DNA of 64,000 nt, taken from NCBI GenBank assembly GCA_030524635.1, contig JAUNGG010000013.1:1-64000 (forward strand), given 5' to 3'. This stretch comes from Lachnospiraceae bacterium (lineage in GTDB: Bacteria; Bacillota; Clostridia; Lachnospirales; Lachnospiraceae). Below the pieces are notes generated by a model. It was not told where the DNA came from, ran no database searches, and saw nothing but the letters and a program-made list of their open reading frames with translations. Of the stretch, positions 2,562 to 40,500 are shown in pieces. Positions within the stretch are counted from its first letter, which is position 1; each line of letters begins with the position of its first letter. A program made the translations under genes and the position numbers.

Positions 2562-3851
2562 ATGATGGAGAAATTTACCGAGAAGCTGACTGATGCTGCA
2601 GCGGTATTTGAGAACAACAAGCATCTGATGGTGATTAAAAATGCATTCGTAGGGATTATGGGATTTATTATTGTAGGATCCTTTGCAACCCTTTTTAACG
2701 CAATTCTTTGTAGCACGACCACTGGTTTGGCCCGCTTTTCCGCATTTTCATGGCTGGCCAATTTATCTGGAATGTTTTCTACAATCAATAATGCAGCCAT
2801 GAATATTCTGGCAATTATGATTGCAGTTCTGATGGGATTCCTGTATGGGAAGAAAAATAAGGTGAATGAAATTACAAGCGCAATGGTCTGCCTGGTATCC
2901 TTTTTATGTGTTTCTCCCATGTTTACAGAGGTAAAGGTTGGGGAAGTGGTTCAGACTGTGGGAAAGGTGCTCCCCTTTTCCTCTATTAATGCAGAAGGAT
3001 TATTTGCTGCTATGTTGATTTCCATTCTGGCTTCGGAAATGTTTTACCGTCTGACAAAAGTAGAGAAAATCAAGATCAAGATGCCGCCACAAGTTCCCAA
3101 AAACATTGCAAATACTTTTAATGACCTGATTCCGGTGGCTCTGACCATTCTGGTGATTGCTGGAGTGGGAGAGGGAATCCGTGCGGTTACTGGTACGTAT
3201 GTTACTAATATCATTTATAAGCTGGTTCAGATTCCGCTGCAGAAGGTAATTACTACACCAGTGGGAATTGTGGTTATGACCTTTGTTTCCCTGCTGTTCT
3301 GGAGCGTAGGGGTTCACGGAAATCAGCTGATTGCTTCTGTGAGAAGTCCGCTGGGTGCCAGTGCCTTAGCAACCAATATTGCCCTGGTAGAGGCAGGAAT
3401 GGCAGCAACTGAGGTGTATACAGGAGCCATGTGGACTGTTTTCATTACCATGACCGGTTCTGGTATTACATTATCTTTGATTCTGGCAATTCTTGCTTTC
3501 TCAAAGAGAGAGGATTATCGTGCCATTGCAAAGCTGGGATTCGTTCCTGGAATTTTCGGGGTCAATGAACCGATTATTTTCGGACTTCCAATCGTATTAA
3601 ATCCGCTGATGTTGGTACCATTCATTTTCTCCGGCTGTCTGGCAGCAGGCGTTTCCTATTTTGCCATCGCAAGTGGATTTTTGCCTTGTAACTACGTAGC
3701 AACACCATGGGGACTTCCGCTGTTTGTGAATGCCTTTATTGCTTATGGAACCTGGAAGGCTATTCTGGTACAGATCATCATTCTGGCCCTTTGCTTCCTG
3801 GTATACGCTCCGTTTGTAAAGGCCGCAAACCATATGAAGGAAACGGAGTAG
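2562..3851 (+). CDS. licC: PTS lactose/cellobiose-type EIIC permease
   Basis: A 429-residue polytopic membrane protein of the EIIC Lac/Cel family, with about ten hydrophobic segments. It opens with MMEKFTEKLTDAA and has the conserved cytoplasmic stretch GVNEPIIFGLPIVLNP near residues 325-345, where the substrate-binding His/Glu loop lies in the family. It carries a beta-glucoside across the membrane while EIIB phosphorylates it. GGGGGAT precedes the start, and the next gene begins 15 bases downstream. Substrate identity cannot be read from sequence; the neighbouring 6-phospho-beta-glucosidase argues for a beta-linked glucoside. Confidence 0.9.
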   Translation: MMEKFTEKLTDAAAVFENNKHLMVIKNAFVGIMGFIIVGSFATLFNAILCSTTTGLARFSAFSWLANLSGMFSTINNAAMNILAIMIAVLMGFLYGKKNKVNEITSAMVCLVSFLCVSPMFTEVKVGEVVQTVGKVLPFSSINAEGLFAAMLISILASEMFYRLTKVEKIKIKMPPQVPKNIANTFNDLIPVALTILVIAGVGEGIRAVTGTYVTNIIYKLVQIPLQKVITTPVGIVVMTFVSLLFWSVGVHGNQLIASVRSPLGASALATNIALVEAGMAATEVYTGAMWTVFITMTGSGITLSLILAILAFSKREDYRAIAKLGFVPGIFGVNEPIIFGLPIVLNPLMLVPFIFSGCLAAGVSYFAIASGFLPCNYVATPWGLPLFVNAFIAYGTWKAILVQIIILALCFLVYAPFVKAANHMKETE

Positions 3852-3862
3852 AGAGGAGATAG

Positions 3863-5328
<1,466 letters not shown>

Positions 5329-31011: not shown

Positions 31012-31235
31012 TTGATGAAGACAAGGGGGAAGGAAAAATAAGGTAAAAATAATAAGAACCAGTTGCGTTTTTCACAGATTTTGCTATAATGGAAATATCT
31101 GGATGATTCGCATTCCGCATAGAAAACTTAAGGTCCTGTACGGGAAGATATAAGGCAGAAGGCCGAGCAGTTGCTGATTTCTGTGATCAGTTATAAGGCG
31201 GCAAATACAAGGTGGATGCTGCCCCTGTTTTGAAT
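31012..31235 (+). repeat. Rpn-element leader, copy A (promoter plus structured RNA)
   Basis: This stretch is shared with 37836-38028 and 39166-39395. It begins with AAGATTTTGATGAAG, which resembles the last codons of the nucleotidyltransferase gene at 36596. It then has a promoter, TTGCGT (31063-31068), 16 bases, TATAAT (31085-31090, extended -10 TGC), and a conserved stretch with several hairpins. In this copy the first hairpin is damaged. It runs directly into the Rpn C-terminal remnant at about 31235. Confidence 0.7.
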
Positions 31236-31489
31236 TCTTAACGGAATTTTTGACCAAGCACAAGGCGGAGGTGAGAAAGATGATTTTAAGCGAATACGAT
31301 GAAGAACTGCATTTGAAGGATACGTATCATTGTGGGTATGAGGATGGGAGATCGGAAGGAGAAAGCCTATTTGCATCGCTGACAGCGAAGCTGATCGGAG
31401 ACTCCCGGCTGGATGATCTGACAAACGCATTAAAGGATGAGGAATTCCGCCGTTGCTTATATCGCGAATATGGAATTAAGAAGGAATAA
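31236..31489 (+). pseudogene. Truncated Rpn-family gene, C-terminal part only; possible solo RpnS-like antitoxin
   Basis: The sequence from TTAACGGAATTTTTGACC onward matches the last 85 residues of the two full copies at 38159 and 39500; the first 220 or so residues are deleted, with a junction about 31235. The intragenic ribosome site GGAGGTGA (31267-31274) and ATG 31280 are intact, so a 69-residue protein beginning MILSEYDEELHLKDTYHCGY could be made from the leader promoter. Its EG linker is the shortest of the three copies. It is either a dead remnant or a free-standing small C-terminal protein. Confidence 0.7.
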
Positions 31490-31638: not shown

Positions 31639-31821
31639 TCACTCATTTTCTGATAACGTATTCTTACCCTGCTCTTTTTTCAGCGATTCCAGGCCTAAGC
31701 GTATCAGCTCTACTGTTGCCTCGGAGCGGGTCTGAAAACGGTTTTCAAAACGGAAATCTTCAATCCGTTTAAACAACTCATTGTCTACAGAAACCGTATA
31801 TCTTGGCTTATCCGTTGCCAT
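31639..31821 (-). CDS. Ribbon-helix-helix DNA-binding protein
   Basis: A 60-residue protein of the ribbon-helix-helix (CopG/Arc-like) type. Residues 6-13 (PRYTVSVD) form the DNA-reading strand, followed by helix A (NELFKRIEDFRFENRF) and helix B (TRSEATVELIRLGLESL). The start at 31821 is set by GAGGTG seven bases upstream; the frame is open to 31830. It is transcribed away from a second RHH gene. No toxin partner lies next to it, so a plain regulator is more likely than a type II antitoxin, though the latter is not excluded. Confidence 0.75.
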   Translation of the reverse strand: MATDKPRYTVSVDNELFKRIEDFRFENRFQTRSEATVELIRLGLESLKKEQGKNTLSENE

Positions 31822-31889
31822 ATTCATCACCTCACTTACTATTATGCACCAGTGATGCAGAGATGTAAAGATGTAATTTTAATTTTTTC

Positions 31890-31986: not shown

Positions 31987-32178
31987 ATGGCTACGAACCT
32001 GAAACGATTTACAATATCGGTAACCCCCAAAATGGAGGAAGCTTTGGATGCGGTAAAGAAGGAACGTTACTATAACACCTCACATAATGAGATGATCCGG
32101 GATCTGATTCGGATGGGACTGAATGTTCTTAAGACAGAACACGGGGAAGACCGGTATAAGCAGGAGAGAACTGCGTAA
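31987..32178 (+). CDS. Ribbon-helix-helix DNA-binding protein, first gene of the peptide operon
   Basis: A 63-residue RHH protein. LKRFTISVTPKMEEALDAVKK gives the beta strand and first helix, and SHNEMIRDLIRMGLNVLK the second. AAAAGGAGG lies ten bases before the ATG. A consensus promoter and palindromic repeats lie directly upstream, which fits self-repression. The peptide gene starts 92 bases downstream on the same strand without an intervening terminator, so this protein may control the whole operon. That link is inferred. Confidence 0.75.
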   Translation: MATNLKRFTISVTPKMEEALDAVKKERYYNTSHNEMIRDLIRMGLNVLKTEHGEDRYKQERTA

Positions 32179-32270: not shown

Positions 32271-32393
32271 ATGGAGAAGAAAAATTATGAAAGACCTGTG
32301 ATGGAAGTAATCCGGATGGAGCAGGAGGATGTGATTCGGACGAGTGATCCCAATGGAAACAGTATAAGCAGTACTAGTCTCGATGCATTTTAA
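32271..32393 (+). CDS. Putative RiPP precursor peptide (40 residues, YxxP leader motif)
   Basis: A 40-residue ORF behind a very strong ribosome site (AGAGGAGGAGAAAGCA before ATG). It begins MEKKNYERPVMEVIRMEQED and ends in a Ser/Thr-rich tail, DPNGNSISSTSLDAF. Y6-x-x-P9 followed by hydrophobic and acidic residues resembles the leader motif bound by PqqD-like recognition elements in lasso-type systems. The tail has five Ser/Thr after residue 30 and no Cys, so thioether or Cys-derived azole rings are not possible. Its stop lies inside the start region of the kinase gene (11-base overlap), giving translational coupling. Assignment as a modified-peptide precursor is inferred from context. Confidence 0.7.
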   Translation: MEKKNYERPVMEVIRMEQEDVIRTSDPNGNSISSTSLDAF

Positions 32394-33132
32394 ACCAATG
32401 AAGTTTAACATAAGATTAGCCGGTTTAACAATCGGGCTGAACAGTGAATACCCGGCGCTTAAGGACTTCTGTCAGGATTATCTGGCAGAGGAAAAGGCGC
32501 CGGATTTTTCTGTTTCCATTACCCGAAAAGAATGTATGGAGGAGCAAAAGCACTCTTTTGAAGCAGGTCAGGAGTATTCCTTTGATTACCTGGCGCAGCT
32601 GGCGCTTCTCCGCCGGATTGGGAATATCCTTCCGGCTTATGGGCGTTGTCTGCTTCACGGGGCGTCCATCACCTATCAGAGCTCGGCATACCTATTTACC
32701 GCACCTAGCGGAACCGGGAAATCCACTCACATCCGATTGTGGAAGGAGTATCTGGGAAGTGGAGTGGAGATTGTCAATGGCGATAAGCCGATCCTGTCCT
32801 TAGAGGATTCACAGATTTGGATTCACGGAACTCCCTGGGCGGGAAAGGAAGGCTGGCAGCGGAACCGAAGCGCAGTTTTAAGGGGCATATGCCTGTTAAA
32901 GCAGGGAAAGGAGAACCGGATTGAGAGACAGCAGCCATGGAGTTGCCTGCCCCGTCTGTTAAAGCAGATTTATCTGCCCCAGGAGGAAGGGATGGCCGGT
33001 GAAACCCTCAGGCTTTTAGACCGGCTGCTGGATATTGTTCCGGTGTACCAGTTGGAATGTGACCGAGCAGAGGAGGCGGTTCGCTGCAGCTTTGAGGCGA
33101 TGACAGGGCTGCCTTATAAGGAAGGGAGATAG
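32383..33132 (+). CDS. HPr-kinase-like P-loop kinase of the peptide locus
   Basis: A 249-residue protein of the HprK-related kinase group (PEPCK-like P-loop fold). It carries LLHGASITYQSSAYLFTAPS, then GTGKSTH as the P-loop near residues 110-116, and EIVNGDKPILSL, the position of the HprK acidic metal site, at about 128-140. Such kinases in lasso-type clusters phosphorylate a serine of the peptide. The Ser/Thr-rich peptide upstream is the obvious candidate substrate. The start is ATG 32383 or 32398; neither has a clear ribosome site because of coupling to the peptide gene. Confidence 0.75.
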   Translation: MHFKPMKFNIRLAGLTIGLNSEYPALKDFCQDYLAEEKAPDFSVSITRKECMEEQKHSFEAGQEYSFDYLAQLALLRRIGNILPAYGRCLLHGASITYQSSAYLFTAPSGTGKSTHIRLWKEYLGSGVEIVNGDKPILSLEDSQIWIHGTPWAGKEGWQRNRSAVLRGICLLKQGKENRIERQQPWSCLPRLLKQIYLPQEEGMAGETLRLLDRLLDIVPVYQLECDRAEEAVRCSFEAMTGLPYKEGR

Positions 33133-33136
33133 GAGC

Positions 33137-33412
33137 ATGAGAATGAAAAAAGGATTTGTCCTGCGGGAGGTGGCCGGACAGTTTATGGTGATCGCCACCG
33201 GGGAGGCCAGCAGGCAGTTTCACGGTATGATTCGTCTGAACCAGACCGGTAAAGAGATCTGGCAGGGACTTTCTGATGGGTTGACAGAGGAAGAGATTGC
33301 GGGGAAGCTTGTCCAATCCTATGGGATTGAGAAGAGTCAGGCAGCAGAGGATGTAAGGAACATGATTCGGCAAATGACAGAGGAAGGATTTTTGCAGAAT
33401 GAAGAGCCATGA
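33137..33412 (+). CDS. PqqD-family peptide-recognition protein (RRE)
   Basis: A 91-residue stand-alone PqqD-fold protein. It shows the winged-helix pattern of RiPP recognition elements: a strand region to VIATGEASRQFHGMIRLNQTG, then KEIWQGLSDGLTEEEIAGKL and a final helix ending MIRQMTEEGFL. Such proteins bind the leader peptide through a beta strand and deliver it to the modifying enzymes. TAGGAG precedes the start. It lies 4 bases after the kinase and overlaps the peptidase gene by 14 bases. Confidence 0.82.
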   Translation: MRMKKGFVLREVAGQFMVIATGEASRQFHGMIRLNQTGKEIWQGLSDGLTEEEIAGKLVQSYGIEKSQAAEDVRNMIRQMTEEGFLQNEEP

Positions 33413-33887
33413 ACATGAAATGGAGCCGGCGGTTAAGGCAGAAGAAGGCAGCAGAACCATAGAGGATATTCTGCAGAAGGAAGGGATATATGTAGGAACC
33501 ACAGCCGGTGTCAGCATGTACCCCATGCTGAGAGACCGGCGGGATACCATCGTGATAAGGCCCTGCCGGGGGCGGCTTAAGAAGTATGATGTGCCGCTGT
33601 ACCGTCGGGGAGATGCCTATATTCTGCACCGGATCGTCCGGGTGCTGCCGGATTCTTATGTGATCTGCGGCGATAACTGCCTGAGGCGGGAGTATGGAGT
33701 GACAGACCAGCAGATTTTTGGAGTTTTGACTGAGTTTTACCGGGGAGATACCTGGATCAACATGAACGGCCTGGCATACAAGGGGTATGTCAGGTTTTGG
33801 TGTTTTATATACCCGGCGCGCTTCTGCTGTAAAGTGCTTTTGGGCAGGGTAAAATGCTTGTTGAAGGGAGAAAGGATAGGATGCTGA
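33399..33887 (+). CDS. S24/S26-type peptidase, signal-peptidase-like (ER-type His variant)
   Basis: A 162-residue protein. The catalytic serine is S39 in AGVSMYPMLRDRRDT. The general base position reads YILHRIVRV with H77, as in the SipW/ER-type signal peptidases that use His instead of Lys, and VICGDNCLRREYG is the conserved GDN box. Residues 128-148 are hydrophobic and may form a membrane anchor. In this operon it is the best candidate for leader removal from the 40-residue peptide. A cryptic regulatory role is less likely. Confidence 0.75.
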   Translation: MKSHEHEMEPAVKAEEGSRTIEDILQKEGIYVGTTAGVSMYPMLRDRRDTIVIRPCRGRLKKYDVPLYRRGDAYILHRIVRVLPDSYVICGDNCLRREYGVTDQQIFGVLTEFYRGDTWINMNGLAYKGYVRFWCFIYPARFCCKVLLGRVKCLLKGERIGC

Positions 33888-34822
33888 AGCGAGTGATCAT
33901 AATACTGACGATTCTGCTTGCGGCAGTTATGACCGTTTTTTTCTGGCAGGGAAGACGGGAGGAACAAAATAAGCAGGCTCAGTACCGGCAGATGGAATTG
34001 GAGGCACAGCCTCTGAATGTAAAAAAACAGGGAATTCAGCAGGAGATATGGCGGCTGGAGGCAGATTATTCGAAACAGCTGTCGCCCATGGGAACGGCTG
34101 TGATTTTATTTACCTCACCGGATGCGGAAGTGTATACGAAGTGTTATCCGGTGATGCGGGAGCACGGCTATCTGGGCGTAGTGGCATTGTCTGCGTCCAA
34201 GTTTCCTGGAGAGGAGGGCTGTATGACCCAGGAGCAGTTTGCAGAGCTGCTGCGGATGGGATGGCGCTTCTGTGTGATCTGGGAGCCGCCTGTGGAGCGG
34301 ACAGCAGAGCGTCTGCAGTCTGCCGGAATGAGTTTGAGTGAGGTTGTTTATTTCCCGGAGGGGACTTATGCTTCTCAGTATGACAAGGAACTGAAGGAGA
34401 TGGGATTTTCCGTGGCGGTTCATCATGGAGAGGAGAGCGGCAACATTCTCACGCTGGAGGACGAGGAGGAGATCTGGCACCCCGGAGCGGTAGGATTACG
34501 GGGAAGTCAGGCAAAATATTGGCTGAGAGAGGCAGTATCCCAGAAGGGAAATATGGTGTTTGCAGTAGGCTTTGAGCAGCAGGAGGAGCTGTACGATGAG
34601 CGGAAGTTTCAGAATATGATCGACAGCCTGGACAGTTATCGAACCGAGGGCAGCATTATGGTAACTGATTTTGCCGGGGCCAGGTCATTAAGCGGGGAAG
34701 CGGCCTTGAAAAAAATTACGTTGGAGCCGGAATATAACAAAAATCGAGAGGAGCTGGAGGAGGAGCTTCGCCAGGTCAATGAGGAGCTTGACGCTGTTTA
34801 CAAAAAATATCTGGAAAATTAG
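33881..34822 (+). CDS. Membrane-anchored NodB-fold (polysaccharide deacetylase-like) protein, degenerate
   Basis: A 313-residue protein with an N-terminal membrane helix (residues 4-22, RVIIILTILLAAVMTVFFW), a short coiled coil, and a domain with NodB-like layout: AVILFTSPDAEVYTKCYPVM, HGYLGVVALSA, TQEQFAELLRMGWRFCVIWE. The Asp/His/His metal site of polysaccharide deacetylases is not present. A second coiled coil closes the protein (EELEEELRQVNEELDAVYKK). AAAGGATAGG supports the start at 33881. Its role in a peptide locus is unknown; it may be a carrier or scaffold outside the membrane. Confidence 0.6.
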   Translation: MLKRVIIILTILLAAVMTVFFWQGRREEQNKQAQYRQMELEAQPLNVKKQGIQQEIWRLEADYSKQLSPMGTAVILFTSPDAEVYTKCYPVMREHGYLGVVALSASKFPGEEGCMTQEQFAELLRMGWRFCVIWEPPVERTAERLQSAGMSLSEVVYFPEGTYASQYDKELKEMGFSVAVHHGEESGNILTLEDEEEIWHPGAVGLRGSQAKYWLREAVSQKGNMVFAVGFEQQEELYDERKFQNMIDSLDSYRTEGSIMVTDFAGARSLSGEAALKKITLEPEYNKNREELEEELRQVNEELDAVYKKYLEN

Positions 34823-34830
34823 AGAAATTG

Positions 34831-36522
34831 ATGAAGACAATCAAATGGATAAACAATACAGTTGGGACAGCCAGGTGGCTGGTAGTGCTTTTAAGCCTGC
34901 AGAAAAGCCTGCTGGCATTATGCGGCATCGGATATGCTCTTTTTATGCGCCGGATCATAGATGACGCTGTTGCTGGAAATCAAGCCGGGTTTGTCAGATG
35001 GGCAGCAGCGCTGGGCGGGGTGATATTGCTTCAGCTTCTGATACAGGCAGCAGCACGTTTCTGCCTGGAAGAGAGCACATCGGCTGTGACAAATAAGCTC
35101 CGTCAGGCAGTATTTCATGGAATTATGACACAGGATTACCGGACTGTTGCATCATGTCATACAGGAGAGCTGATGAACCGGATCACCTCAGACGTTACGG
35201 CGGTGTCTGATGGAGTGACAGCGCTGATTCCCGATGTGATCTCCATGGTACTGCGGGTCATTGGAATATTGGCAGTACTGTATCAGGTAGAGAAGAGGCT
35301 GGCTGTTCTGCTGGTAATCGGAGGAGGAATTCTGACAGCGCTGTCATTTTTTCCAAGAAAACTGATGAAGAAACTATATCATTGGGTGCAGGAGCAGGAA
35401 GGAAAGGTGCGGTGCCTGATACAGGAATGCTTAGAAAGCCTGCTGATCATACATTGCTTTCAGTGTGAAGAGAAGATGGAAAAGGAAGCTGGAAAACAGA
35501 TGAGAATCCAGCGGATGGTGAGAAGGCGGAGAGGAGCATTTGCCAACTTATTTAATATCGGGCTGAACGCAGCAATGCAGTGGGGATACCTGCTGGGTGC
35601 AGTCTGGTGCGGATGGGGAATCCTGCAGGGGTGGCTGAGCTATGGAACCATGATGGCTGTTCTTCAGCTGATTGGTCAGATTCAGGCGCCCTTTGTCAAT
35701 CTAGGAAATGCATTTCCAAAGTGGACGGCGATGACAGCCAGCGGGGAACGCCTGATGGAGCTGACACTCCATTTACAGCAGTCAGAACAACCATCTGTAA
35801 GGCTGTCAGAGAAGCAGAGAGAGTTATATTCGGCACTTACAAGGGAAGAAATTTACCAGCAGATGGAATCAATCTCGTTCGAACAGGTATCCTTCCAATA
35901 TAAAAGTGGAAGACAAGTGCTGGAGCAGGAATCTTTTCAGATTCGAAAGGGAGAGGTGGTGGCAATGACGGGTTCCAGCGGCATTGGAAAAAGCACGATC
36001 ATGAAGCTTTTGCTGTCAGTTTATGAGCCGGACAGCGGCAGGATCGTACTCCGTTTCAACCATGCGGATGAATCCGGACAGATACCATCTATCCCGGTAT
36101 CTCAGCTTCCACCAGGAATCTTTGCTTATGTGCCTCAGGGAAATTGTCTGATGAGCGGAACGATCCGGGAAGTGGTAGGCTTTTCCCAGCAGGCAGGAGC
36201 AATCGATCAAAGGGATGTGGAGGAAGCCTGCGGCATTGCATGTGCCCATGAATTTATTCAGCTTCTCCCGGATGGATATGATACGGTGCTTGGAGAACGA
36301 GGAGCCGGTCTGTCAGAAGGGCAGATGCAGCGGCTGGCTGTAGCAAGGGCGATCTACAGCCGCTGTCCCATTTTGCTTTTGGATGAAGCTACATCGGCAT
36401 TAGATGGAGAAACAGAGGGAAGGCTGATGAATGCTTTGAGAGCATTGCCGGACAGAACGATACTGATTGTAACCCACCGTGCAGATACGTGGAAACGATG
36501 CGACAGAGTTTTAACTCAATAA
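34831..36522 (+). CDS. ABC transporter, fused permease and ATPase, of the peptide locus
   Basis: A 563-residue half-transporter with about six membrane helices in residues 15-300 and an ATPase domain in 345-563. Walker A is MTGSSGIGKST near 380, the signature is LSEGQMQRLAVARA with LSEGQ in place of LSGGQ, Walker B is ILLLDEATSALD and the H-loop IVTHR. There is no N-terminal C39 peptidase domain, consistent with a separate S26-like peptidase in the operon. It would export the processed peptide as a homodimer. It begins eight bases after the previous gene. Confidence 0.86.
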   Translation: MKTIKWINNTVGTARWLVVLLSLQKSLLALCGIGYALFMRRIIDDAVAGNQAGFVRWAAALGGVILLQLLIQAAARFCLEESTSAVTNKLRQAVFHGIMTQDYRTVASCHTGELMNRITSDVTAVSDGVTALIPDVISMVLRVIGILAVLYQVEKRLAVLLVIGGGILTALSFFPRKLMKKLYHWVQEQEGKVRCLIQECLESLLIIHCFQCEEKMEKEAGKQMRIQRMVRRRRGAFANLFNIGLNAAMQWGYLLGAVWCGWGILQGWLSYGTMMAVLQLIGQIQAPFVNLGNAFPKWTAMTASGERLMELTLHLQQSEQPSVRLSEKQRELYSALTREEIYQQMESISFEQVSFQYKSGRQVLEQESFQIRKGEVVAMTGSSGIGKSTIMKLLLSVYEPDSGRIVLRFNHADESGQIPSIPVSQLPPGIFAYVPQGNCLMSGTIREVVGFSQQAGAIDQRDVEEACGIACAHEFIQLLPDGYDTVLGERGAGLSEGQMQRLAVARAIYSRCPILLLDEATSALDGETEGRLMNALRALPDRTILIVTHRADTWKRCDRVLTQ

Positions 36523-36595
36523 GAAGGTTACTATAAAAGTCTGCTGTCGAATAGGCGGCTTACGTTCATTCGGGAAGAAGGGAATTGTAAAAAGG

Positions 36596-37861
36596 ATGAT
36601 AAGGGAGAAGAAAACAGAATTTAATTGGCCAGCGGGCCACTATCTGGTTTTTTTGATGGGGTGTGCTCTGCAGGATACATTAGGGAAAGAAAAGTGGAAG
36701 AGGAAACCGGAAGCAGTCACCTGGGAGCAGGTGTATGCATTGTCTAAGCATTGCGGAGTAGAAGGTATCAGTTACTTTGGCGTGAAAAAATTGGAAGAAC
36801 AGGAGGGGAAGAAAGCAGATTTGCCTGCAGACCCGCTTATGAAGGCATGGAAGCAGGAGGCTGACCAGATCTGTTATCGAACCCTTTGCTTTGATGAAGA
36901 GCGCAATGCAATCTTAAAGGAAATGGAAGCCCAAGGACTTTCTTATTTGCCATTGAAGGGAATCCGTCTGGCGGAACATTATCCTCATCCGGGAATGCGG
37001 CTGATGGCAGATAATGATATTTTATATGGATTTATAGAACCGGGGCTGGATGGAGGATATCAAATAGCCGGAGCGGATGAGAGCAGCCGGGACAGATCGG
37101 TGCTGAGCGCTCAGAAGGTAATGCGGGAAATTATGAATCAAAAGGGATACAAAACGGAGAACCTGAAAGGAAACCATGATGTATATTTAAAAAAGCCCTT
37201 CTATAATTTTGAGATGCATCGTATGCTGATGGGAGAAGGGCAGCCGAATTATGAATATTATAAGAATCCATGGAAGCGGGCGATCCAGGATACTGCGAAC
37301 CCATATGCCTATTTTTTCTCTGATGAGGATGAGTACTTGTATCTGCTGGCACATGCTTTTAAGCATTTTTATCATGGAGGCTGCGGAATCCGTTTTCTGG
37401 CGGATCTATATGTATTTCAAAAGAGTAAGGGAGATAGCCTGGACCGCAGATACCTGACGCAGGAACTGCGGAAGATGGGAATGGAGGATTTTGAGGCAAA
37501 GATGAGCCAGCTTTCTATTGCCGCGCTGGAAGGAAAACTGCTGAATCGAAAAGAAGCCGAACTGCTCCGGGAGCTTCTTGGATGCGGAACCTATGGAACC
37601 ATCCGTACTCATGTAGAAAAGAAACTGGAGCGGCTGTCTGATTCTGACAACAGTTTCAAACATGCAAAATGGCGCTATATTTGGAAACGAATTGTGCCGG
37701 AGAAGGAGTTTTGTAAAAACTATTTTCCATTTTTTTATCGCCATCGGTATTTGATGCCGGTTCTTTTCCTTTATCGAGTAGGAAAGGGTGTGATTCAGCA
37801 TCCAAAAAAGCTGTGGGCAGAGTGTAAGATTTTAATGGAGACCGGGAGGAAGGAAAAATAA
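36596..37861 (+). CDS. Nucleotidyltransferase family protein (NTP_transf_5 type)
   Basis: A 421-residue protein of the uncharacterised NTP_transf_5 group, often found in lasso-peptide and PqqD-containing loci. The core motif YLPLKGIRLAEHYPHPGMRL is followed by MADNDILY (about residues 136-143), where the acidic pair matches the DxD of the nucleotidyltransferase fold. DVYLKKPFYNFEMHR follows. The rest is helical with LYLLAHAFKHFYHGG. It could nucleotidylate or otherwise modify the peptide, or work with the kinase. Its last codons and stop lie in a repeat shared with the Rpn leaders. Confidence 0.75.
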   Translation: MIREKKTEFNWPAGHYLVFLMGCALQDTLGKEKWKRKPEAVTWEQVYALSKHCGVEGISYFGVKKLEEQEGKKADLPADPLMKAWKQEADQICYRTLCFDEERNAILKEMEAQGLSYLPLKGIRLAEHYPHPGMRLMADNDILYGFIEPGLDGGYQIAGADESSRDRSVLSAQKVMREIMNQKGYKTENLKGNHDVYLKKPFYNFEMHRMLMGEGQPNYEYYKNPWKRAIQDTANPYAYFFSDEDEYLYLLAHAFKHFYHGGCGIRFLADLYVFQKSKGDSLDRRYLTQELRKMGMEDFEAKMSQLSIAALEGKLLNRKEAELLRELLGCGTYGTIRTHVEKKLERLSDSDNSFKHAKWRYIWKRIVPEKEFCKNYFPFFYRHRYLMPVLFLYRVGKGVIQHPKKLWAECKILMETGRKEK

Positions 37862-38028
37862 GGTAAAAATACGAGAAGTTGTTGCATTTTCTGCAAATTT
37901 TGCTATAATGGAAATATCTGGATACTATGCATTCCGCATAGAAAACTTAAGGCCCTGCACGAGAAGATATGAGGCAGAGGGCCGAGCAGTTGCTGATTTC
38001 TGTGATCAGTTATAAGGCGGCAAACATA
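37836..38028 (+). repeat. Rpn-element leader, copy B (promoter plus structured RNA)
   Basis: This is homologous to copies A and C. The promoter is TTGCAT (37882-37887), 16 bases, TATAAT (37904-37909). After it, CTATGC/GCATAG, GGCCCT/AGGGCC and CTGAT/ATCAG stems can form. The next 75 bases diverge from copy C, then similarity resumes at CTTTGCAAAACAGACAG before the Rpn start. This fills the 37862-38158 gap. Confidence 0.7.
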
Positions 38029-38158
38029 AGATTGCTTTGCCCTGATGGGAATTGGTTATAGATTCCTGAGTGATCGTCTTCGAAAAAATGATAATTCCAA
38101 TTATTTCCACTCTTTGCAAAACAGACAGATTATAGTAAAATAAAAGGAGAACGTGCAT

Positions 38159-39076
38159 ATGACAGTTACAAAAGAGGCGGCAGGAAACCGTCAGCATAAG
38201 GATCGGCTGTTCCGCAGGATCTTTCAGGAGAAGGAAGATCTGTTAAGCTTGTATAATGCGGTGAATGGTTCTCATTATACCGACCCGGAGGAACTTGAGA
38301 TCACAACCATTGAGGATGTCCTTTACATGGGAATTAAGAATGATATCTCGTTTCTGATCGATGATTATCTGAATTTATATGAGGCCCAGTCCAGCTGGAA
38401 TCCCAACATGCCGCTGAGAGGAATCTTTTATTTTTCCAGCCTGTATTCCGGGTATGTGAAGGTGCGGAAGCTGGATCTTTATTCACGGAGCCGGATTATG
38501 ATTCCTACTCCAAGGTTTGTAGTGTTTTATAACGGAACCCGGAGGGAACCGGAGAGAAGGGAACTTCGTCTGTCCGATTCCTTTATCAAATCCGACAACC
38601 AGCCGCCCAGCCTGGAGTGTGTGGCAGTGGTGCTGAACATTAATTACGGACAGAATAAGGAATTAATGAAAAACTGCCGGAAGCTGTACGAATACGCGTT
38701 TCTAGTCAATCAGATCCGGATTCATATTGGGAAGGGACTGACGCTGGAGGCAGCGATTGATGAAGGGATTGCAGTTTGTGTGGAGCAGGATATCTTAACG
38801 GAATTTTTGACCAAGCATAAAGCGGAGGTGAGAGAGATGATCTTAAGCGAATACGATGAGGAACTGCATTTGAAGGATACGTATCATTGTGGATATGAGG
38901 ATGGGAGATCGGAAGGAAGAAAAGAAGGAAGGATAGAGGGAGAAATGAAGGGCGAAAGCTTATTTGCATCCCTGGCGGCGAAGCTTATAAAGGATTCACG
39001 GATGGATGATTTGACAAATGCATTAAAGGATGAGGAATTCCGCCGTCGCTTATATCGCGAATATGGCATTAAATAA
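38159..39076 (+). CDS. Rpn-family PD-(D/E)XK nuclease, copy B
   Basis: A 305-residue protein of the Rpn/PD-(D/E)XK transposase-like family. The N-terminal half holds HKDRLFRRIFQEKEDLLSLY and the nuclease core DISFLIDDYLNLYEAQSSW with NMPLR (about residues 62-85; E-x-Q variant of the catalytic motif). The C-terminal part is helical with an EG-rich linker of four repeats (EGRKEGRIEGEMKGE). E. coli Rpn proteins are DNA nucleases with antiphage and recombination-promoting activity. ATG 38159 has AAGGAG ten bases upstream; GTG 38153 is less likely. It is almost identical to copy C. Confidence 0.85.
   Translation: MTVTKEAAGNRQHKDRLFRRIFQEKEDLLSLYNAVNGSHYTDPEELEITTIEDVLYMGIKNDISFLIDDYLNLYEAQSSWNPNMPLRGIFYFSSLYSGYVKVRKLDLYSRSRIMIPTPRFVVFYNGTRREPERRELRLSDSFIKSDNQPPSLECVAVVLNINYGQNKELMKNCRKLYEYAFLVNQIRIHIGKGLTLEAAIDEGIAVCVEQDILTEFLTKHKAEVREMILSEYDEELHLKDTYHCGYEDGRSEGRKEGRIEGEMKGESLFASLAAKLIKDSRMDDLTNALKDEEFRRRLYREYGIK
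38837..39076 (+). CDS. Possible intragenic RpnS-like small protein, copy B
   Basis: Inside the Rpn gene, GGAGGTGA (38824-38831) lies eight bases before an in-frame ATG at 38837. This is a near-perfect Shine-Dalgarno in a coding region. The product would be the last 79 residues, MILSEYDEEL onward, with the EG linker. In E. coli, shorter RpnS proteins made from within rpn genes block the full-length nuclease. Translation here is inferred from the site and its conservation in all three copies. Confidence 0.5.
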   Translation: MILSEYDEELHLKDTYHCGYEDGRSEGRKEGRIEGEMKGESLFASLAAKLIKDSRMDDLTNALKDEEFRRRLYREYGIK

Positions 39077-39095
39077 AATGGAATCAATACAATAA

Positions 39096-39131
39096 AGCAA
39101 GCAGGCAGGCCAATCAGCGGTCTGCTTGTTT
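39096..39131. repeat. Stem-loop ending Rpn copy B
   Basis: AAGCAAGCAG (39096-39105) can pair with CTGCTTGTTT (39122-39131). It occupies the same place as the stem-loops after copies A and C. Confidence 0.5.
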
Positions 39132-39165
39132 GATTTAGAAGGATTGAGAAACGAAAAATCATTCA

Positions 39166-39395
39166 AAATTTTGATGAAGACAGGGGGAAGGAAAAATAAG
39201 GTAAAAATAATAAGAACCAGTTGCGTTTTCTGTATATTCTGCTATAATGGAAATATCTGGATGCTATGCATTCCGCATAGAAAACTTAAGGCCTTGCACA
39301 GGAAGATATAAGGCGGAGGGCCGAGCAGTTGCTGATTTCTGTGATCAGTTATAAGGCGGCAAATACAAGGTGGATGCTGCCCCTGTTTTGAATTT
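39166..39395 (+). repeat. Rpn-element leader, copy C (promoter plus structured RNA)
   Basis: It begins with AAAATTTTGATGAAGACAGG, which again resembles the 3' end of the nucleotidyltransferase gene. The promoter is TTGCGT (39221-39226), 16 bases, TATAAT (39243-39248). It closely resembles copy A up to TTTTGAATT, where copy A is deleted. The 39077-39499 gap holds this leader, the copy B stem-loop and a variable spacer. Confidence 0.7.
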
Positions 39396-39499
39396 TCTCA
39401 TTGATTCAGGATTAATGATTCCTGAAATATAATCATTTCATTCATCCCCAGTCTTTGCAAAACAGACAGATTATAGTAAAATAAAAGGAGAACGTGCAT

Positions 39500-40399
39500 A
39501 TGACAAATACAAAAGAAGCGGCAGGAAACCGTCAGCATAAGGATCGGCTGTTCCGCAGGATCTTTCAGGAGAAGGAAGATCTGTTAAGCTTGTATAATGC
39601 GGTGAATGGTTCTCATTATACCGACCCGGAGGAACTTGAGATCACAACCATTGAGGATGTCCTTTACATGGGAATTAAGAATGATATCTCGTTTCTGATC
39701 GATGATTATCTGAATTTATATGAGGCCCAGTCCAGCTGGAATCCCAACATGCCGCTGAGAGGAATCTTTTATTTTTCCAGCCTGTATTCCGGGTATGTGA
39801 AGGTGCGGAAGCTGGATCTTTATTCACGGAGCCGGATTATGATTCCTACTCCAAGGTTTGTAGTGTTTTATAACGGAACCCGGAGGGAACCGGAGAGAAG
39901 GGAACTTCGTCTGTCCGATTCCTTTATCAAATCCGACAACCAGCCGCCCAGCCTGGAGTGTGTGGCAGTGGTGCTGAACATTAATTACGGACAGAATAAG
40001 GAATTAATGAAAAACTGCCGGAAGCTGTACGAATACGCGTTTCTAGTCAATCAGATCCGGATTCATATTGGGAAGGGACTGACGCTGGAGGCAGCGATTG
40101 ATGAAGGGATTGCAGTTTGTGTGGAGCAGGATATCTTAACGGAATTTTTGACCAAGCACAAAGCGGAGGTGAGAGAGATGATCTTAAGCGAATACGATGA
40201 GGAACTGCACTTGAAGGATACGTATCATTGTGGGTATGAGGATGGGAGATCGGAAGGAAAAGCAGAGGGCGAAAGCTTATTTGCATCCCTGACGACGAAA
40301 CTTATAAAGGATTCACGGATGGATGATTTGACAAATGCATTGAAGGATAAGGAGCTTCGCCAGCGCTTATATCGCGAATATGGCATTAAGAATGAATAA
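39500..40399 (+). CDS. Rpn-family PD-(D/E)XK nuclease, copy C
   Basis: A 299-residue protein, nearly identical to copy B over residues 8-235, including the core DISFLIDDYLNLYEAQSSW. The EG linker is shorter (EGKAEGE) and the last 40 residues carry several substitutions (for example TTKLIKDSR, DKELRQRLYREYGIKNE). AAGGAGAACGTGCAT precedes the ATG. The near identity over about 700 bases and change in the C-terminal tail suggest recent duplication or gene conversion, with the C-terminal region evolving faster. Confidence 0.85.
   Translation: MTNTKEAAGNRQHKDRLFRRIFQEKEDLLSLYNAVNGSHYTDPEELEITTIEDVLYMGIKNDISFLIDDYLNLYEAQSSWNPNMPLRGIFYFSSLYSGYVKVRKLDLYSRSRIMIPTPRFVVFYNGTRREPERRELRLSDSFIKSDNQPPSLECVAVVLNINYGQNKELMKNCRKLYEYAFLVNQIRIHIGKGLTLEAAIDEGIAVCVEQDILTEFLTKHKAEVREMILSEYDEELHLKDTYHCGYEDGRSEGKAEGESLFASLTTKLIKDSRMDDLTNALKDKELRQRLYREYGIKNE
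40178..40399 (+). CDS. Possible intragenic RpnS-like small protein, copy C
   Basis: GGAGGTGA (40165-40172) precedes an in-frame ATG at 40178, as in copies A and B. The product would be a 73-residue C-terminal protein with the copy C linker. Translation is inferred. Confidence 0.5.
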   Translation: MILSEYDEELHLKDTYHCGYEDGRSEGKAEGESLFASLTTKLIKDSRMDDLTNALKDKELRQRLYREYGIKNE

Positions 40400-40433
40400 A
40401 CAGCGGATAATCTAAATTCATGAATACAATAAA

Positions 40434-40470
40434 GCAAACAGGCAGGCTCACAAAGGGCCTGCCTGTCTGC
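40434..40470. terminator. Stem-loop between Rpn copy C and the convergent FAH gene
   Basis: GCAAACAGGCAGGC (40434-40447) pairs with GCCTGCCTGTCTGC (40457-40470) with one mismatch. On the minus strand it is followed by TTTATTG, so it may end the FAH transcript. Confidence 0.6.
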
Positions 40471-40500
40471 ATGAAAAGGATGACATAACATTCTCAGCCA

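Follow-up and report, generated by a model that had tools for sequence, protein, structure and literature searches.

Conserved internal start sites in Rpn-like nuclease genes of a Lachnospiraceae bacterium suggest genes within genes of the toxin-antitoxin type

Three copies of an Rpn-like gene lie on the plus strand of the window, that is, the whole stretch of 64,000 nt that was analysed. Copy 2 (38159..39076, 305 aa) and copy 3 (39500..40399, 299 aa) are full-length genes for Rpn-like nucleases (RpnL). Copy 1 (31280..31489, 69 aa) is the C-terminal part alone, a solo RpnS-like gene without the nuclease domain. An earlier note on this DNA had claimed that GGAGGTGA precedes an in-frame ATG in all three (31267/31280, 38824/38837 and 40165/40178), and we found this to be so, with Shine-Dalgarno (SD) sequences at 31267..31274, 38824..38831 and 40165..40172. 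The spacing of six to eight bases given there needed correction: in all three copies the ATG follows GGAGGTGA at a distance of 5 nt, or 8 nt when counted from GGAGG. From the internal ATG, nested rpnS reading frames of 79 aa in copy 2 (38837..39076) and 73 aa in copy 3 (40178..40399) are open. The copies are otherwise near-identical in this part and differ in the number of extra tetrapeptides: none in copy 1, one in copy 3 (KAEG, 40259..40270) and three in copy 2 (RKEG-RIEG-EMKG, 38918..38953).

A promoter and 5′ leader precede each copy as a three-copy direct repeat (repeat family D1, 75-93% identical; 31024..31236, 37843..38055 and 39182..39394, all on the plus strand). The unit comprises a promoter (TTGCGT/TTGCAT ... 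TATAAT) and a leader of about 120 nt with a GCTATGC-ATTCC-GCATAG hairpin. It stands before every copy, the solo ones included, and also at 1216-1419 of L004, a related locus elsewhere in the genome. Weaker traces were seen upstream of the genus relatives L008, L009 and L015. Comparison of the leader with Rfam gave no family at the gathering level and noise only at a relaxed threshold, and the leader folded no better than shuffled sequences. Between copies 1 and 2 (32271-37861) there is a cluster that includes NTP_transf_5 (PF14907). Its other members, named from reading only, are a 40-aa precursor-like peptide (32271-32393), a kinase-like protein, a small PqqD-like protein, an S24-type peptidase-like protein and an ABC transporter. 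It is possible that this is a RiPP cluster which recombination between the directly repeated rpn units on either side could excise. Two small divergent ORFs beside the solo gene (31639-31830, minus strand; 31987-32178, plus strand) have, again from reading only, the look of ribbon-helix-helix DNA-binding proteins.

The earlier note regarded such a strong site within a coding region as unlikely by chance. This could not be derived from the window alone, because GGAGGTGA occurs five times where 2.45 are expected and 12 of 100 shuffles also reached five. SD-like sequences ahead of ATG are common across the window. The three copies are paralogues, and thus they are not three independent observations. 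A chance origin of the octamer was possible on the window alone and was rejected by its conservation in relatives, which is where the claim held good. Pairing of the internal site with the anti-SD is predicted at -15.4 (the same dG as for copy 1), compared with -9.3 for the primary start. The internal SD sequences of copies 2 and 3 are recognised from sequence, synonymous conservation and this pairing together.

We gathered relatives from the same genome, the genus, named bacterial genomes and the family, picking them by protein and not by codon. The site is spanned by 119 distinct long proteins, and a reduced set consisted of 37 sequences less than 50% identical. Glu and Val are nearly invariant at the site. 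The Glu codon is GAG in all 116 relatives that bear Glu, and the remaining three of the 119 have Val. Among the representatives, 37 of 37 use GAG, compared with 39% over the remainder of these genes (P = 1e-15.9, calculated from each gene's own usage). The highest GAG fraction at any other well-filled Glu column of this set is about 0.6, and only 47% of Glu codons before Val or Ala elsewhere in these genes are GAG. A start codon lies at most one codon from the Met column in 119/119; where Met is substituted, the codon is GTG for all 18 Val and TTG for both Leu residues. Pairing with the 16S tail averages -13.8 kcal/mol, whereas synonymous shuffles average -7.7 (z = -12). In 28 of 36 genes, the internal SD equals or exceeds the primary one in strength. 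Any SD with a start was found in the C-terminal zone of 97% of genes compared with 49% after shuffling, and in an upstream control zone the values were 16% and 19%. The site is fixed among window-family proteins that are as little as about 23-26% identical. The earlier note had proposed a survey of Lachnospiraceae Rpn genes and had named a lack of conservation in other homologues at synonymous positions as a refutation; the reading survived, with the site conserved at these positions. Three related genes (L066, L070 and L085) carry Val for Glu at the site (GGA GTG GTG or GGA GTA GTA), with a shifted or weaker SD. Their start may lie two codons earlier or their SD may be a weaker one, and the standard site may be in the process of being lost.

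Loss of the upstream nuclease part did not remove the site, as was claimed earlier for copy 1, and the same holds for a second, independent internal deletion in this genome. In copy 1 the junction with the shared leader lies some 30 nt ahead of the SD; in L004, where 18 N-terminal codons remain, the junction lies some 20 nt ahead of it. Over the deleted copies, the deletion ends 20-34 nt before the site. In L060, L100, L120 and L017 the nuclease part is broken, yet the site and the C-terminal frame are intact. Over the short frame, copy 1 has a dN/dS of 0.065 against copy 2 and 0.09 against copy 3, which indicates that it is still under purifying selection as a protein. In another genome, L040 carries behind a full-length gene an additional C-terminal copy (3793-4159), which has its own SD and exceeds the nested copy by about four tetrapeptides. 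In L105 (3611-4124), long tandem repeats of the EKEKNAQALQA type replace the tetrapeptides behind a disrupted nuclease part. Copies 2 and 3 of the window form a mosaic (37843-40490): their nuclease parts are 99.4% identical, their leaders 82% and their C-terminal tails 91%. The codon differences are concentrated in the putative antitoxin part (11/67 compared with 3/226, P = 9e-6). The pattern looks like gene conversion that kept the toxin parts alike while the antitoxin parts drifted apart.

Similarly, a second family of the same genome carries the site. L005 scores 116 bits against TIGR01784 and passes the NCBI cut-off for Rpn. Rpn genes of this kind in the same genome (TIGR01784 / PF12784) share the catalytic pattern, the internal GGAGG and the Met position with the window genes. 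The spelling differs, with Trp-Arg-x-x-Tyr-Met in the canonical genes and Glu-Val-x-x-Met in the window genes, so that in L005 and its Lachnospiraceae relatives the same GGAGG ahead of an invariant Met is encoded by other residues. Where the spelling is Trp-Arg, Arg is AGG in 18/18 representatives, compared with 17% at other places, for which simple multiplication gives about 1e-14; in the alternative spellings (Met/Leu/Phe-Glu and the like), Glu is GAG in 6/6. The closer relative L216, which has AGA, is an exception. Further spellings occur in the phylum- and family-wide set, in which 71% of genes have an SD with ATG in the C-terminal zone compared with 27% of shuffles (control zone, 2% and 3%). 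The internal Met residues of the two families coincide in a profile-profile alignment over 241 columns (probability 97.8, E = 6.7e-13, 27% identity), which also shows full-length homology of the window family to canonical Rpn. Since the residues at the site vary and its nucleotides do not, selection acts on ribosome binding. Synonymous-site conservation in two divergent families very strongly supports a predicted internal translation start for a C-terminal protein of 69-79 aa.

The name Rpn should be read with care for the window genes. Their proteins score 21.5 (copy 2, E = 1.7e-4) and 16.2 bits against TIGR01784, below the curated NCBI cut-off of 52.1, and among the 34 relatives 13 reach E 0.001, with a best value of 5.8e-9. 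No family of Pfam or PADLOC was matched by them. Judged by sequence, they are divergent Rpn homologues and not members of TIGR01784 by the NCBI threshold, so the label of the earlier note stands in the sense of a divergent relative. Both families carry the residues of a PD-(D/E)XK active site. D62 and E75 are invariant and Q77 is conserved in at least 90% of the 34 window-family relatives, and this conservation marks the putative active site of copy 2 (D-x12-E-x-Q, 38342..38389); the canonical family shows the same pattern with D69, E83 and Q85, all invariant. In the AlphaFold model of copy 3 (mean pLDDT 86.6), the C-terminal domain is a long helix (234-270) followed by two short ones, and the GGAGG falls at the junction between this domain and the nuclease. 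The list of fold matches is led by the PD-(D/E)XK nucleases McrC, Shedu and EndoMS, with modest scores (Z up to 6.4, Foldseek E above 0.06). A profile search of the PDB by sequence gave low-scoring unrelated chains only; RpnAS (7TH0) was absent from the lists, which is not counter-evidence. In phage and plasmid collections, the matches were five faecal phage contigs without annotation (38-46% identity) and two short stretches in plasmids.

This anatomy resembles that of the E. coli RpnL/RpnS systems (RpnA-E, RpnP2), which have an N-terminal PD-(D/E)XK nuclease, an internal ribosome-binding site and start near the gene end (Lys-Glu-x-x-Met in RpnA), a helical C-terminal domain in which the number of tetrapeptides varies, and solo or downstream RpnS copies. 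The arrangement of L040 mirrors rpnE plus rpnES. Zhong et al. (2023, PMC10327210) showed that E. coli rpn genes make RpnS from the internal start, and that RpnS binds RpnL and blocks cleavage, toxicity and SOS induction; one added repeat switches the partner of RpnS. For the repeats, which come soon after the RpnS start, their paper gives a range of 8-20 residues. In the short window proteins, the region of variable four-residue repeats, an RpnS-like trait, begins near residue 19, within the predicted long helix. Unlike E. coli Rpn, the window proteins are remote in sequence, their C-terminal proteins are larger (69-79 aa, compared with 5.4 kDa for RpnAS) and no internal promoter was recognised in the window genes by a consensus scan. 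The E. coli rpn genes do have an internal transcription start (PMC10327210), and the family-wide signal for an internal promoter was slight (z = 2.5). We consider it highly probable that the two full-length genes are genes within genes of the Rpn toxin-antitoxin type and that copy 1 is what remains, as a solo RpnS, of a gene that lost its nuclease part. By homology with E. coli RpnL/RpnS, the short product is most likely an intragenic antitoxin.

It is unlikely that the internal start is used for a structural partner or assembly factor instead of an inhibitor, as Cas11 is for Cascade. Cas11 is likewise a small C-terminal protein made from an internal start in a gene of a nuclease system, and the Cas10d/Cas11d internal product has a complementary role (PMC10327210). 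It differs in being a required subunit and not an inhibitor. The comparative data support the start and not its effect; however, the homologous E. coli product relieves growth inhibition, SOS induction and DNA cleavage, and purifying selection on solo copies that have no nuclease fits an inhibitor acting in trans. We think it very improbable that GGAGG is retained for ribosome pausing as a folding aid: the site does lie at the domain junction, but a start codon follows it in every one of the 119 proteins, the Val and Leu replacements are always start codons as well, and the site outlives the upstream domain. Slightly less credible still is a relic of two fused, formerly translationally coupled genes whose second start is now dispensable, because the synonymous positions of such a relic would be eroded and this site is fixed at very low protein identity, even though C-terminal units do exist alone and as downstream duplicates. 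We can practically dismiss an accident of protein constraint on Glu-Val-x-x-Met and G-rich codon bias, for which the near-invariant residues and the abundance of SD-like sequences before ATG in the window might speak, since GAA is just as frequent where these dipeptides occur at other places of the genes, other Glu columns show no fixation of GAG, synonymous shuffles fail to reproduce the motif and the canonical family writes GGAGG with Trp-Arg, Met-Glu, Leu-Glu or Phe-Glu.

Under the toxin-antitoxin reading, a single mRNA from the shared promoter and leader would give the full-length PD-(D/E)XK-type nuclease (RpnL), and the internal GGAGGTGA/ATG would give the C-terminal protein of 73-79 aa (RpnS), probably in larger amount. 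From the match in anatomy with the E. coli proteins (the D-x12-E-x-Q pattern, the weak fold list and the helical C-terminus), we infer that the mechanism is inhibitory: the long helix of RpnS would pair with the same helix of RpnL, and the nuclease would be blocked and held inactive. The number of tetrapeptides in the helix would decide which partners match, so that the paralogues would be insulated, and cross-neutralisation among paralogues with zero, one and three tetrapeptides may be absent. Copy 1, presumably the RpnS that remained after the nuclease part was lost, has no extra repeat and may fail to neutralise either neighbour. A role in phage defence may be suspected.

The earlier note suggested the same design in a distant Gram-positive family. 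For the internal start this is supported in two divergent families, and for the antitoxin role by homology to RpnS, but the Gram-positive extension is not wholly new. In the same paper (PMC10327210), expression of a Clostridioides difficile rpn gene in E. coli gave an internally started RpnS that was lost when the ribosome-binding site and start were mutated. That case is alike in its Gram-positive origin and internal start; it differs in being one gene in E. coli, and the text on it reports no survey of synonymous conservation. We found no later paper on this subject in the open-access papers searched. What the present analysis adds is evidence that synonymous positions are deeply conserved, together with a set of natural variants in repeat number.

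It is difficult to demonstrate a gene within a gene from sequence; here the choice of codons alone points to an internal start in families that have little sequence in common. Rpn is a very common gene family, often annotated as 'putative transposase', and the conservation extends what was found in E. coli, and in a single C. difficile gene, to a general rule for it. A GAG or AGG fixed just ahead of a start codon provides a simple annotation test. With middling confidence, we propose that the internal start is ancient and near-universal in Rpn genes of Bacillota and older than the split of the subfamilies, whose residues at the site are now different, that the need for GGAGG at the RNA level dictated the residues at the domain boundary (Glu-Val or Trp-Arg), and that the near-identical nuclease paralogues, with their different repeat numbers, and the solo antitoxin would make up a few toxin-antitoxin pairs insulated from one another. 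The window offers a natural experiment on antitoxin specificity, with near-identical nucleases, differing repeat numbers and a solo antitoxin.
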